A stretch of DNA of 64,000 bases from Deltaproteobacteria bacterium (GCA_020848745.1 JADLHM010000025.1:62001-126000); one strand, 5' to 3'; positions 7,273 to 64,000 are shown, numbered from the stretch's first letter. Program-made: numbers and translations. Notes: generated by a model from the letters alone, not told the origin.

Positions 7273-8034
7273 TCAGCCGCGCCGGAGCAGCGCCCGCACG
7301 TACTCGCGACTGAGCCGCTGGATGTTCGTGACCGAAATCTCCTTCGGGCAGACCGCCTCGCACTCCCCCTCGTTGGAGCACGCCCCGAACCCTTCCTCCT
7401 CCATCTGCGCCACCATCGCGAGCACGCGCCGCTCGCGCTCCGGGCGGCCCTGCGGCAGCGTCGCCAGGTGGCCGACCTTCGCGCCGACGAAGAGCACGGC
7501 CGAGGCGTTCTTGCAGGCGGCGACGCACGCGCCGCAGCCGATGCACGCCGCCGCATCCATCGCCCGCTCCGCATCGTCCTTCGGCACCGGGATCGCATTG
7601 GCCTCGGGCGCGCTGCCCGTATCGACCGACACGTAGCCGCCCGCCGCGATGACACGATCAAAGGCGCTCCGGTCGACGACCAGGTCCTTCACGACCGGAA
7701 AGGCGCGCGCCCGCCACGGCTCGAGGGTGATCACGTCGCCGTCGCGGTAGTGGCGCATGAAAAGCTGGCACGTGGTCGTCGCGGCCTTCGGTCCGTGAGC
7801 GACCCCGTCGACGACCAGGCCGCACGAGCCGCAGATACCCTCGCGGCAATCGGAGTCGAATGCGATCGGCTCTTCGCCGCTCGCGGTGAGGTCCTCGTTC
7901 ACGACGTCGAGGAGCTCGAGGAGCGACATGTGGGGCGACACGTCGCGCGCCGTGTAGTCGACGAGCCGTCCGGGCGTCTGCGGGCCCGGCTGCCGCCAGA
8001 CCCGCAACGTCAGCGTCATCGTCGCTTCGCTCAC
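7273..8034 (-). CDS. sdhB: Succinate dehydrogenase/fumarate reductase iron-sulfur subunit
   Basis: SdhB carries electrons from the flavoprotein to the membrane quinone site of complex II. From GTG 8034 the protein is 253 aa. [2Fe-2S] ligands are Cys63, Cys68, Cys71 and Cys89; [4Fe-4S] ligands are Cys164, 167, 170 and 229 ([12 protein letters not shown] and CEAVCPKE); [3Fe-4S] ligands include Cys174, 219 and 225. The order is typical of type B enzymes with one large cytochrome b anchor. GTG 8034 overlaps the sdhA stop (GTGA) and has GGAG upstream. ATG 8019 (MTLTLRVWR) is an equally reasonable start. It is the last gene of the respiratory operon. Confidence 0.92.
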
Positions 8035-9956
8035 TTGTAGCTCCGCTGCGTCAACGTGACGCTCTCGAAGTGGAGCGGCTCCGTGTGGAGCGTCGGCGTC
8101 CGATCCCCGCCGTGCCACTCCCATGCGGCGACGTGCGCGAAGTGCTCGTCATCGCGCTGCGCCTCGCCGTCGGGCGTCGCGTGCTCCTCGCGGAAGTGGC
8201 TGCCGCACGACTCGTCACGGGCGAGCGCGTCGATCGCCACGAGCTCTCCAAACTCGAGGTAGTCGGCGACCCGGAGCGCCTGCTCGAGCGACTTGTTGAA
8301 GTTCGTGGGCTCGCCGGGAACGCGCACGTTCTGCCAGAAGGCCTCGCGCTGCGCGCGCACCGCGGCGCGCGCCTCCTCGATGCCCTGCGCGGTGCGCGAG
8401 ATGCTGCACTTCTCCCACATGACCTGGCCGAGCCGACGATGGTGGGTGGTGACCGACGTGTCCCCGCGCACGCGGAGCACGTGGTCGATGCGCGTCTGCA
8501 CCGCGTTCGCCGCCTCCTTGAAGGCGTCGTGGTCCGTCGACACCCTCCCGAGCGTCGTCCCCGCGATGTAGTTCGCGAGCGTGTACGGGATGATGAAGTA
8601 ACCGTCGGCGAGACCCTGCATGAGCGCGCTTGCGCCGAGCCGGTTCGCGCCGTGGTCGGAGAAGTTCGCCTCACCGAGCACGAAGAGGCCCGGGAGGTTG
8701 CTCATCAGATCGTAGTCCACCCACAGGCCGCCCATCGTGTAGTGCACCGCCGGGTAGATGCGCATCGGAGCCGCGTACGGGTCGTCGCCGACGATGCGCT
8801 CGTACATCTGGAAGAGGTTGCCGTAGCGCTCACGGATGACGTTGGCGCCGAGCCTCTGGATCGCGTCGGCGAAGTCCAGATAGACCGCGTAGCCCGTCGG
8901 GCCGACACCCTGCCCCGCCTCGCACACCGCCTTGCAGTTGCGGGCGGCGACGTCGCGCGGCACGAGGTTGCCGAAGCTCGGATAGCGCTCCTCCAGGAAG
9001 TAGCAACGCTCGCCCTCGGGGATCTCCCGCGGCGCGCGATGGTCGCCGGCGCGCTTCGGGATCCACACCCGCCCGTCGTTCCGCAGGCTCTCGCTCATGA
9101 GCGTGAGCTTCGATTGGTACTCGCCCGAAGCCGGGATGCAGGTCGGGTGGATCTGGACGAAACAGGGGTTGGCGAAGTAGGCGCCGCGTTTGGCGCAGCG
9201 CCACGCCGCGGTGACGTTGCAGTTCCCGGCGTTGGTCGAGAGGAAGTAGAGGTTGCCGTACCCGCCCGTCGCGAGCAGCACTGCGTCGGCGGCCCAACGT
9301 TCGATCTCGCCCGTGACGAGATCACGGGTGACGATGCCGCGCGCCCTGCCGTCGACGACGACCAGGTCGAGCATCTCGCGACGCGGGAAGATCTTGACGG
9401 TCCCCTCGTCGACCTGGCGCATGAGCGCCCCGTAGGCGCCGATCAAGAGCTGCTGCCCGGTCTGTCCGCGCGCGTAGAATGTTCGCGACAACTGCGCGCC
9501 GCCGAACGAGCGGTTGTCGAGGAACCCCCCGTACTCTCGGGCGAACGGCACGCCCTGCGCCACGCAGTGGTCGATGATCTTGACGCTCACCTCCGCGAGG
9601 CGGTGGACGTTCGCCTCGCGGGCACGAAAATCGCCGCCCTTGATGGTGTCGTAGAAGAGCCGGAACACCGAGTCGCCGTCGTTCTTGTAGTTCTTCGCGG
9701 CGTTGATCCCGCCCTGCGCCGCGATCGAGTGCGCGCGCCGGGGGCTGTCGAGAATGGTGAACGCGAGGACGTTGTAGCCGAGCTCCCCGAGCGAGGCCGC
9801 GGCCGAGGCTCCGGCGAGTCCGGTGCCGACCACGATGACCGTGTGCTTGCGCCGGTTCACCGGATTCACGAGCTTCAAGTGGTCCTTGTAATGGGTCCAC
9901 TTCGTGTCGAGCGACCCCGGAGGAACCTTGCCGTCGAGGATCACGCCGGCACCCAT
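8031..9956 (-). CDS. sdhA: Succinate dehydrogenase/fumarate reductase flavoprotein subunit
   Basis: SdhA oxidises succinate to fumarate at a covalently bound FAD on the cytoplasmic face. The 641-residue protein has the dinucleotide fold [14 protein letters not shown] (about 40-53) and the FAD-linking His76 in [12 protein letters not shown]. The active-site region is HPTCIP, and [18 protein letters not shown] lies near residue 430. The N-terminal extension before the FAD fold ([16 protein letters not shown]) is characteristic of the type B group. ATG 9956 overlaps the sdhC end by 16 bases; GTG 9944 gives a GTGA overlap and is an alternative. It sits between sdhC and sdhB. Confidence 0.95.
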
Positions 9957-60460: not shown

Positions 60461-61240
60461 GTGAGCTTCGCGACCTGGCACGATCTCTACCGGAGCGATC
60501 TCCAGAGCGCGGTCGCGGTGACGATCGTGCCGCTGCTCTTCCTGCTCTATCTGGCGTGGACGGAGCGGCCGGACGGCAGCGGCATCGTCCCAGGGGCGCG
60601 GCGCTTCGTCGAAGCGTGGGCCGGGACGTTCGCCGTCCTGACGGTCGTGGACCCGCTCGCGGGCGGGCCGCTGCTGCGCGTGCTCGGGGTCGCCGACGCG
60701 CCCGTCGCGACCGCCGTCATGGTGGCGTTCGTGCTGCTCGGCGACTTCCGCGTCTACCTCCTCGTCTTCGCCCTGATGACGCACGCGGGCGCGCAGCACG
60801 ACGCGCGCGTCGCCGACCCGGTCTTCGCGACCCGCGACGCGCTCCGGCTGGTCCCGCCGCGCGCGGCGCTCGCGGCCGCGCTCGCGACGCTGGTCGTGCC
60901 GCTCGTCGCGGTGGCGGCCGAGGCCCTCGTGCGCACGCGCGTCGCCGCGCCACCTGCGCAATCGATCTGGCTCGCCTACGAGCTCGCGTTCCTCGTCGTG
61001 GCGCTCGCGCTGCGCCAATGGGTCGTGCCGGTGCGCGTGCCGGGCACCGCGCCGCGCCTGCGGATCTACCTCCGCCGCGTGCTCGCCTACGTCGCGACCT
61101 ACTACGCGCTCTGGGCGCTCGCCGACGCGCTCATCATCGCCGGCCTCGACCTCGGCTGGGCGCTACGGATCCTGCCGAACCAGCTTTACTACGCCTTCTG
61201 GGTGCCGTTCGCCTATGGCGCGTTCTTCGCCCGCAGGTAG
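60461..61240 (+). CDS. Polytopic membrane protein of unknown function
   Basis: A 259-residue protein with about seven predicted helices. Short loops are Arg-rich (for example PRLRIYLRRVLAYVATYYAL), and it has conserved-looking DFRVYLLVFALM and LPNQLYYAFWVPFAYGAF. No family is recognised. It follows the carbonic anhydrase gene closely enough to share its transcript, so a role linked to CO2 or bicarbonate is possible but unproven. Its last 28 bases overlap the convergent SIS-creatininase gene. Confidence 0.7.
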   Translation: MSFATWHDLYRSDLQSAVAVTIVPLLFLLYLAWTERPDGSGIVPGARRFVEAWAGTFAVLTVVDPLAGGPLLRVLGVADAPVATAVMVAFVLLGDFRVYLLVFALMTHAGAQHDARVADPVFATRDALRLVPPRAALAAALATLVVPLVAVAAEALVRTRVAAPPAQSIWLAYELAFLVVALALRQWVVPVRVPGTAPRLRIYLRRVLAYVATYYALWALADALIIAGLDLGWALRILPNQLYYAFWVPFAYGAFFARR

Positions 61241-63135
61241 GCATCGGCGAGGAGGTCGACCCAGGCGCCGAGATAGGCGTCGGCGCGCACCGCGCTCGCG
61301 CCGCGCGGGTCGCCGACGACGCCGGTCGGGGCGTGGTCGCGGAGGCTCGGGTAGAAGAGCGCCTGCGGGTCGGCGACCGCGCCCGTGTGCCCCGCCGCCA
61401 GCGCCGCGGTCCGCACGCTCGCCGGCCGGAGCGCGAGCAGGATCGACGTCTCGGCCTCGCCCGCGTGGTGACCCGCCGCGAGCGGATCGACGCCGGCCTC
61501 GGCCGCGACGCGCGCGAACGTCGCGGCGACACGTGCGAGATCCGTGAACGCCTCGATCCGCATCGGCGCCGCGGCGGCGCGGAGCGCCGGCACCATCGCC
61601 GCGAGATCGGCGTAGTTGCCGCCGTGCGCGGAGAAGACGAACGCGCCCGCGAAACCGGCGCGCGCGAGCGAGCGCACGAGGTCCGCGAGCACAGCCGAGA
61701 GGGTCGTCGGCGCGAGATCGAGAGTGCCGGGAAACGCGAGGTGCTCGCGCGAGCAGCCGAAGGGCACCGTCGGGCACACGATCGCTTCCGGAAAGCGCGC
61801 GGCGAGGCGCGCGGCGAGCGCGTCGCCGATCCACGTATCGGTCGCGAAGGGGAGGTGCGGGCCGTGCTGCTCGGTCGCGCCGAGCGGCACGAGCGCGACG
61901 CGCGGTCGCGCCGCGAGCGCGCCGGCGAGCTCGGGCCAGCTGAGATCGGCGAGCCGCGGCGCGGCGGGCGTCGACCCGGCGCGCGCCGCGCCGCCCGCCG
62001 TCGGTGCCCCCGCGCGCGCCGGCGCCGCCGCCTCGCCCGGCACGAAAGCCGCGGCCTCGTCGAAGCCGCCGACGGCATAGAGCGGGCGATCCCTTCCCTG
62101 CCCCGGCCAGCGCGCCTGCTCCACGCCGTGCGCGGCGATGCCCGCGAGCACGAGCTCGGTCACCAGCGCCTCGTGCTCGAAGAGCGCGAGCGGCATCGGC
62201 AACGTCGCCGGCAGGCGGACGAGCGCGTGGCGCGTCGGATCGAGCATGCCGGCGAAGCGGTCGAGCAGCTCATCCTCTCGGGTCGCGTCCGGGCGAGCCA
62301 GCGCGAGGAGCGTCGCCGCCCCGGCGCTCGCCTGCTGGAACGGGCCGTGCGCGAACTCGAGGAGGTCGAAGATCGGTGGCAGGGGCACGAGCAGCCCTTC
62401 GAGGAGCTTCCACGGCAGGTGCGCAGCGAGGCGCGCGTACTCCCCGCTCGCGACGAAGGCGAGCAGCCCGGCGAGGCGCCCGCTCGCCGCGAGCGCACGG
62501 AGATCGCCGGCGCGCGCGGCCGCGCCCGCGACGGCGGCGGCGAGCGCCGCGCCGTCGCAATGCGGCACCGCCGCCGCGCGGCCGATGGTCGCCGCGAGCG
62601 CCTCGGCGCAGCGGAACGCCGCCAGCATTCCCATCGTCGGACCCGTCACGCGCACGAGCGTTCCGTACTCCTCGGTCCCGGCCGCGAACGGACGCACCTC
62701 CACGCCGATCGCGTGCAGATGCTCGAGGAAGTCGGCGGCGTCGGCACGGCCGCCCGCGCGCGCGTCGGCAGCGTGTGTCGCCGTCAGGAGGACGACATGC
62801 CGCCATGCCGCGGGGTCGGCGAGCGCGAGGCGCGCGTTCGGCGTGAGCCCTTGCGACACCACGACGAGGAGGTCGTCGCACGCGCCGGGCGGCGGCGGCT
62901 CGACGAACGCCCCGATCGGCCGGAAGCGCGCGTCGCACCCGAGGTGCTCGGCGAGGAGATGCGCCAGGAGCCGGGCGTGCGCGGCCGAGCCGCCGACGCC
63001 CGTCGCGACGACGCGACGGATCTCGCCGAGCCCGATCCGCGGCGGATCGAGCGGCAGCGTCGAGGCCGCGCGCAGCAGCGCCGGCAACGCCCGCGCCCGC
63101 GCCTCCAGCGCGCGCCGCGCCTCGCGCCAGGGCAT
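61213..63135 (-). CDS. Fusion protein: double-SIS (GlmS isomerase-like) domain plus creatininase-family amidohydrolase
   Basis: The 640-residue protein has an N-terminal sugar-phosphate-isomerase-like region. VATGVGGSAAHARLLAHLLA (about 43-62), VVVSQGLTPNARLA (91-104) and LEFAHGPFQQ (259-268) align with GlmS isomerase motifs. An Ala/Gly/Pro linker (about 365-393) follows, then a complete creatininase domain (395-640). Its metal ligands are Glu422, His424 (GATEQHGPHLP), Asp433, His504 (SAHGGN) and Glu560 (HHAGEAETS). That superfamily includes creatininase, MftE and the archaeal formamide hydrolase ArfB. Both halves appear intact. ATG 63135 overlaps the stop of the GTP cyclohydrolase II-like gene by one base. 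Confidence 0.82.
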   Translation of the reverse strand: MPWREARRALEARARALPALLRAASTLPLDPPRIGLGEIRRVVATGVGGSAAHARLLAHLLAEHLGCDARFRPIGAFVEPPPPGACDDLLVVVSQGLTPNARLALADPAAWRHVVLLTATHAADARAGGRADAADFLEHLHAIGVEVRPFAAGTEEYGTLVRVTGPTMGMLAAFRCAEALAATIGRAAAVPHCDGAALAAAVAGAAARAGDLRALAASGRLAGLLAFVASGEYARLAAHLPWKLLEGLLVPLPPIFDLLEFAHGPFQQASAGAATLLALARPDATREDELLDRFAGMLDPTRHALVRLPATLPMPLALFEHEALVTELVLAGIAAHGVEQARWPGQGRDRPLYAVGGFDEAAAFVPGEAAAPARAGAPTAGGAARAGSTPAAPRLADLSWPELAGALAARPRVALVPLGATEQHGPHLPFATDTWIGDALAARLAARFPEAIVCPTVPFGCSREHLAFPGTLDLAPTTLSAVLADLVRSLARAGFAGAFVFSAHGGNYADLAAMVPALRAAAAPMRIEAFTDLARVAATFARVAAEAGVDPLAAGHHAGEAETSILLALRPASVRTAALAAGHTGAVADPQALFYPSLRDHAPTGVVGDPRGASAVRADAYLGAWVDLLADAYLRAKNAP

Positions 63136-64000
63136 CAGGCGGCCGCGAGCGCGCGCGGAGGCTCGAGCGCGACGCCGGCCGCGGCGAGCGCGGCGGGCCA
63201 GGCAGCCGCTCCCTGCTCGGCAGCGGCGACGAGCGGGACCGCGGCGCGCCCCCCGAGGTGGCGGCGCGCGAGCGTGGCGTTGGCGGCCGCGTCCTCCGAG
63301 CGCGACGCGATCGGAAAGAGGCTGTCGCCGTGCTCGTCCGTCTCCATGATCGCGACCCCGGCGCCGTGCGCCGCGAAGGCGCGCAACGTCGCGAGCCAGC
63401 GCGACTGCTCGAGGCCGGGCGCCGGGCCGCGCACGCGCTCGAGCAGGGATTCACGCTGCACGCGCAACAGGACGGGCGTCGTTCCCGTGTCGCCCAAGGT
63501 CAGCACGACGCGCTCGCGCCCGCGCACGGCGTCGACGTACGCGTGCAGCCGGAACCACGCGGGCGTCGCGTCCGGATCGGCCCACCGTCGCACCGGGAGC
63601 CAGTACGAGCCGAGGCCGATCAGCGTCGGCGCCTCGGGGAGCGCGCGCGGCGCGACGACTTCGGGCGGCGCCGGCGGCGTCGCTTCGTCGTCCGCGCCCG
63701 CCACCGACAGCCCATGACCCGCCGCGGTCTTGGCGGCGAGATAGTGGCGATTGAACGGCGACGGCGGCAGCGCGAGCGGCACCGCGCCGGCGAGCGGTAC
63801 GCCGAGGCCCGCGAGCATCGCGAGCTTCTCGGGGTTGTTCGTGAGGAGGCGGAGCGGCGCCGCGACGCCGAGGGCGCGGCACGCGGCGGCGACCGCGTCG
63901 TAGGCGCGGAGATCGCTCGGCAGGCCCATACGCGCGTAGGCATCGAACGTGCCGAGGCGCCCGCCGCTCGCCTGCACCAGCATGCGGTCGCGGACCTTGG
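63135..64000 (-). CDS. Duplicated GTP cyclohydrolase II-like protein (5' end beyond the window)
   Basis: The frame is open to the window edge. Taking the internal ATG 63983 as residue 1, the first 90 residues read as the C-terminal part of a GTP cyclohydrolase II domain: LRAYDAVAAACRALGV, LRLLTNNPEKLAMLAGLGVP and FNRHYLAAK. From about 140 to 225 a second, partial copy starts again with the family's N-terminal half: DAVRGRERVVLTLGD, PVLLRVQRESLLERV and IMETDEHGDSLF. It lacks the zinc Cys set and the catalytic Arg. The protein is probably a tandem with one active and one degenerate domain. The overlapping creatininase fusion suggests a common pathway. Confidence 0.72.
   Translation of the reverse strand, partial: KVRDRMLVQASGGRLGTFDAYARMGLPSDLRAYDAVAAACRALGVAAPLRLLTNNPEKLAMLAGLGVPLAGAVPLALPPSPFNRHYLAAKTAAGHGLSVAGADDEATPPAPPEVVAPRALPEAPTLIGLGSYWLPVRRWADPDATPAWFRLHAYVDAVRGRERVVLTLGDTGTTPVLLRVQRESLLERVRGPAPGLEQSRWLATLRAFAAHGAGVAIMETDEHGDSLFPIASRSEDAAANATLARRHLGGRAAVPLVAAAEQGAAAWPAALAAAGVALEPPRALAAA

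Follow-up and report, generated by a model that had tools for sequence, protein, structure and literature searches.

A conserved bacterial gene cassette linking a GTP cyclohydrolase II paralogue to a SIS-creatininase fusion, and its possible role in GTP ring opening

Described split routes and the cassette

The opening of the GTP ring and the removal of the formyl group are divided between separate enzymes in some described systems. In archaea, ArfA (GTP cyclohydrolase III) opens GTP and leaves the formyl group, which the creatininase-superfamily enzyme ArfB takes off. Among bacteria, BrbF is a creatininase-family formamidase acting on 2-amino-5-formylamino-6-ribosylaminopyrimidinone 5'-phosphate (FAPy, also AFRPP), and its gene adjoins a CobW gene in Rhizobiales; its authors described the enzyme giving FAPy from GTP as still undiscovered and proposed the name BrbG for it (PMC9478397). 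Here, we describe a locus at the edge of a 64,000-nucleotide stretch of a Deltaproteobacteria genome (the window, G000:C25:62001-126000; assembly of 4.88 Mb, 99.5% complete), in which a paralogue of GTP cyclohydrolase II (GCHII), named RibA2 here, is encoded next to a fusion of a SIS domain with a creatininase domain. We refer to this gene set as the cassette. A search of the literature on this fusion or on the gene pairing returned only the BrbF paper as relevant (PMC9478397).

The cassette is a conserved, undescribed gene system carried in addition to ordinary vitamin B2 genes. We favor the interpretation, with a probability of roughly 0.45, that it is dedicated to the ring opening of GTP. 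RibA2 would hydrolyse GTP to pyrophosphate and the still-formylated FAPy, from which the creatininase domain of the fusion would then cleave formate, the reaction performed by archaeal ArfB and rhizobial BrbF. For the SIS domain we propose an action at the ribosylamine-phosphate end, with an Amadori-type shift from aldose to ketose or a cleavage of the C-N bond as the most probable reaction, and the product may feed a function involving a partner membrane protein (MEM) and a neighbouring c-type cytochrome. The linkage, the folds, the conserved catalytic residues, the loss of Tyr105 and the co-inheritance are supported by the sequences or the structural model; all chemical steps, their order and the product of the cassette are what we infer.

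The proposed division of labor resembles that of ArfA and ArfB, although the fold of ArfA is unrelated, the opener of the cassette is GCHII-like and its hydrolase forms a fusion with a SIS domain. The BrbF of Sinorhizobium and Brucella is likewise a creatininase-family formamidase proposed to pair with a separate GTP opener, and a CobW gene also lies near one of our loci (L077, see below). However, BrbF stands alone, with no SIS fusion described and its partner not yet known, whereas the cassette includes the linked RibA2. Split GTP opening and deformylation is already a known kind of route, and the chance that the cassette represents a wholly new pathway is modest. The linkage of a GCHII paralogue lacking Tyr105 to a creatininase-family domain makes bacterial split GTP ring opening testable with two genes, and it bears on the published question of which enzyme converts GTP to the formylated pyrimidine in bacteria (PMC9478397). 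The SIS fusion, MEM and the cytochrome point past riboflavin, and the lineages concerned, deltaproteobacterial and Myxococcota-type, may make a new cofactor or redox molecule.

RibA2 and the two halves of the fusion

The first-pass annotation of the window had described a SIS-creatininase fusion gene overlapping a GCHII-like gene by one base, and this arrangement is indeed present. The fusion is a single open reading frame of 640 residues (61213..63135, minus strand), the ATG of which shares base 63135 with the TGA stop of the RibA2 gene (TGATG). RibA2, on the same strand, is truncated by the window edge (63135..64000). The extension past this edge that had been suggested completed it from the genome sequence to 392 residues (G000:C25:125135-126313, to position 64313) and then revealed a gene for a 294-residue c-type cytochrome, the stop codon of which overlaps the RibA2 start codon (ATGA).

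RibA2 matches the Pfam family GTP_cyclohydro2 (PF00925, 156.2 bits, E 7e-46). Its nearest structure is E. coli GCHII (2bz0, VIA Z 23.8, 37% identity), with which it shares the fold, the zinc site, Arg128 and Lys154; the zinc ligands Cys54/65/67 as well as Arg128, Lys154 and Asp126 are retained in 27/27 RibA2 sequences. Unlike the E. coli enzyme, RibA2 carries an extra C-terminal part, residues 219-392, which is a degenerate second GCHII-like half of the N-terminal type (63138..63659, minus strand; hhalign against canonical GCHII, probability 93%, E 2.6e-7), and it stays under both NCBIfam cut-offs for RibA (TIGR00505, 122.1 vs. 205.85 bits; PRK00393, 141.9 vs. 148). A further difference is the replacement of Tyr105 by arginine in 27/27 members. 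HMMER alignments place Arg110 of RibA2 (P0002; codon at 63984..63986, minus strand) opposite the E. coli tyrosine; canonical RibBA/GCHII sequences recovered alongside RibA2 retain it.

Tyr105 of E. coli GCHII is reported to contact the zinc-activated water (Ren 2005). The Streptomyces coelicolor GCHII paralogue SCO6655, with a methionine at position 105, reportedly yields FAPy (Spoonamore 2006); RibA2 resembles it in being a GCHII paralogue without Tyr105 and differs in having arginine there. RibA2 is a candidate for a BrbG-type, FAPy-supplying enzyme in other lineages. The first-pass proposal is supported in part: a GTP ring-opening and deformylation route outside the rib operon is likely, backed by the loss of Tyr105 in all 27 sequences and by the published BrbF; its end product remains a matter of inference. 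Plasmid records, including rhizobial ones, contained no RibA2, and no record spanned 80% of the query.

Pyrimidine salvage of the URC type, in which RibA2 would open UTP (compare the UTP cyclohydrolase structures 7eev/7ej3), had also been offered as an option and is not supported by the comparison. RibA2 shares its fold with UTP cyclohydrolase (VIA Z 18.5), but its score is 166 bits with E. coli GCHII, compared with about 29 bits with UTP cyclohydrolase and 18.5 bits with NCBIfam PRK07198, which we take to be the URC1-like model (cut-off 403). At the base site it carries the GTP-enzyme motifs QEGR and LLTNNPxK rather than KEGR and SMSN, and it is without the N-terminal extension. A URC-type function is therefore extremely improbable.

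The annotated fusion of an ArfB-like, that is creatininase-superfamily, domain to a GlmS-like SIS domain was substantiated for both halves. Residues 396-632 (61240..61950, minus strand) match PF02633 with 208.5 bits (E 1.3e-61; Pfam gathering score 31.3), which places them in the creatininase superfamily. In the CREATININASE domain, the creatininase half, the metal-site motifs EQHGxHLP..D, HGGN and HAGExETS are conserved in the alignments, and the corresponding part of the predicted fusion model matches creatininase structures in Foldseek. The domain scores 95.7 bits with the true creatininase model TIGR04448, not reaching the cut-off of 235, and the ArfB model NF033501 (cut-off 180) gave 16.5-18.1 bits for the two relatives scanned and is absent from the match list of the window protein. 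The closest NCBIfam model is MftE (TIGR03964, 139 bits), and MftE is among the nearest relatives of the cassette domain in the tree. These affinities would suit a creatininase domain with a different amide substrate, perhaps peptidic as for MftE, next to a RibA2 that is a full GCHII with a neutral arginine in place of Tyr105. We regard this as distinctly unlikely, since the score lies under the MftE cut-off of 172, no mycofactocin gene (mftA- or mftC-like) was recognised in the loci read, and the fixation of arginine in every RibA2 sequence argues for changed chemistry.

A Pfam scan of fusion residues 1-357 alone, which include the SIS half (62101..63135, minus strand), gave no match. We predicted the structure of the fusion with AlphaFold2 from 14 cassette sequences (pLDDT 80.9), and in this model the N-terminal part is a complete GlmS-type double-SIS fold. 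The top Foldseek match to the predicted model is the SIS domain of E. coli GlmS (7dnr_B, E 1.8e-11); VIA gave a Z of 29.4 to the GlmS-type fold over residues 4-342, with an rmsd of 2.8 across 316 residues, and Z values of 27.7 for NagB-II and 22.2 for the FraB deglycase. Glu246 and His263, set opposite GlmS Glu488/His504 by eye and fold only, are conserved across the SIS sequences of the two architectures described below, and this conserved pair suggests catalysis. The fusion differs from GlmS, NagB-II and FraB in its altered phosphate-binding loop, its creatininase fusion and a weak sequence similarity. Enzymes with the double-SIS fold act on amino-sugar phosphates, and by analogy a ribosylaminopyrimidine phosphate would fit as the substrate.

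Ring opening by RibA2, deformylation by the creatininase domain and an Amadori shift by the SIS domain would together amount to the reaction sequence of GTP cyclohydrolase I, so that a pterin-type product is chemically possible. The three domains could then divide these steps to make pterin monophosphate or a related compound, a hitherto undescribed GTP-derived redox cofactor or shuttle used by MEM and cytochrome c. We consider such a product clearly unlikely.

Conservation and two architectures

Among 58 genomes sampled from the same class, RibA2 (called at E below 1e-80) was found in 13 and the SIS-creatininase gene in the identical 13. The two genes are adjacent wherever the contig permits; in G056 they lie on separate contig ends. 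Conservation of the pairing in 13/58 genomes rules out chance pairing, and the pair has evidently not been lost from all relatives, an outcome that the first-pass annotation had named as one that would refute its proposal. Samples of 395 genomes from the same phylum gave no match outside the class. The pair recurs in other phyla; RibA2 was found in 5/195 genomes of the Pyxidicoccus phylum, and the SIS domain in 32/379 genomes from the phylum to which the "Myxococcales bacterium DT_71" locus belongs.

Two architectures can be distinguished. Type A consists of [cytochrome c]-RibA2-SIS-creatininase with MEM arranged tail-to-tail and is found at nine loci (L141-145, L147-150) besides the class of the window. 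Type B combines MEM, cytochrome c and a stand-alone SIS gene, with neither RibA2 nor creatininase alongside (18 loci: L146, in which the SIS gene lies on the opposite strand, L151-166 and L168). Two further loci are cut by contig ends, inside the SIS domain (L169) or before the other genes (L167). The flanks of the type B loci held no gene common to all that might stand in for RibA2. A branch with 100/100 support splits types A and B in the SIS tree, which is unrooted and compatible with a gain of RibA2 and creatininase along branch A as well as with their loss along branch B. A SIS gene without a GTP-opening enzyme alongside would suit a role in damage control, in which the SIS domain cleaves reactive ribosylaminopyrimidine phosphates at their C-N bond (compare the N-glycosidase COG3236) and the cassette serves to remove guanine nucleotides with an opened ring; the FraB-type SIS enzymes, which match the model, are deglycases. 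However, a dedicated ring-opening GCHII paralogue would make such nucleotides rather than clear them, and a conserved membrane protein and cytochrome would be unexpected, making this role quite improbable.

Losses of single parts and of the whole are also seen. The myxobacterial loci L078, L089 and L092 retain RibA2 and creatininase and have no SIS domain; their creatininases nest in the cassette creatininase clade (support 99/98), and that of L092 keeps a short fusion-like start (WRAGY). G002, from the same genus as the window, has a natural empty site (L111) in the interval from carbonic anhydrase to cytochrome c; all that is left there is a short remnant, at about 8180-8290, that looks like the beginning of MEM, which indicates that MEM, the fusion and RibA2 were lost there as one block.

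Several of these observations weigh against a dedicated GTP ring-opening cassette. The 18 type B loci, with a SIS gene and no adjacent RibA2 or creatininase, imply that the SIS substrate need not derive from RibA2. L077 has the fusion, the cytochrome and MEM without RibA2, and its genome carries only canonical GCHII, so that the fusion can manage without RibA2; as L077 is nested within type A in the SIS tree, RibA2 was most likely lost there. The phosphate loop of the SIS half is altered to SQG.SPNAR, shorter by one residue compared with the SQSG of related proteins. By model score, the creatininase domain is nearer MftE than ArfB. Finally, because Tyr105 is replaced by arginine and not by methionine, FAPy formation by RibA2 is proposed by analogy.

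The annotation had noted that no rib genes were in view, which holds within the window; ribB, ribD, ribE and ribH were likewise not seen in the cassette neighbourhoods read. The same genome nevertheless has ribD-ribBA-ribH together on another contig, with Tyr105 intact, and replacement of the riboflavin GCHII by the cassette was rejected on these grounds. Directly beside glmS, this genome also encodes a second RibBA, the degenerate GCHII half of which has lost the zinc cysteines and Tyr105 (L093, G000:C12, 5671-6891 and 6943-8769); the listed genomes of the class typically carry a second, weaker GCHII match. GTP cyclohydrolase I (FolE) is encoded away from the cassette in this genome and is present in 12/13 cassette genomes, so that the cassette was also rejected as its replacement in folate synthesis; FolE2 is absent from all 58 class genomes. 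With its own ribD-ribBA-ribH and FolE present in the genome, the cassette is an addition and not a replacement.

The resident ribD and ribH could take up a product of the cassette. RibA2 and creatininase, as a BrbG/BrbF-like module, might deliver DARoPP, the usual intermediate of riboflavin synthesis, to RibD in a second flavin branch with a separate flavin pool, e.g., for export, the SIS domain being regulatory or scaffolding. In Sinorhizobium, the flavin pool supplied through BrbF is a separate, internal one (PMC9478397), and the three SIS-less myxobacterial loci suggest that the pair makes sense alone. The catalysis suggested by the conserved SIS Glu/His pair and the missing rib genes around the cassettes speak against such a branch, which we find unlikely.

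Membrane protein, cytochrome and neighbouring genes

MEM is a polytopic membrane protein of 259 residues from an undescribed family (60461..61240, plus strand). Its gene is convergent with the fusion gene, tail-to-tail with a 28-base overlap, and was found in 12/58 genomes, every one a cassette genome; in the 13th cassette genome, the contig stops inside the fusion. Comparison of MEM with Pfam and PDB gave no significant match. The cytochrome c gene adjoins RibA2 in 13/13 cassette genomes; copies without the cassette occur in G002, G017, G024 and G044, and G047 has a weak match. Its conserved N-terminal part of ~190 residues (L009 4311-5195; A6 alignment) matches no Pfam or PDB family, and only the C-terminal haem domain was recognised.

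Other genes were noted near the cassette and related loci. A homologous gene adjoins the MEM gene in L066 (12596-13339) and L068 (4680-5534) and appears by eye to be CarF/plasmanylethanolamine desaturase-like. In L077, genes for an ArsR-type regulator and a CobW-family protein lie just upstream of the cytochrome and the SIS-creatininase (7752-9002). Near the cassette in L009 (12522-16667), genes recognised by eye as encoding a squalene-hopene cyclase, a squalene/phytoene synthase-like protein and Dxr suggest hopanoid synthesis. In Pyxidicoccus fallax (L078, 8701-13091), a Coq4-family gene and genes for two short-chain dehydrogenases come after RibA2 and the SIS-less creatininase; this gene order is conserved in L089 and resembles a small biosynthetic cluster.

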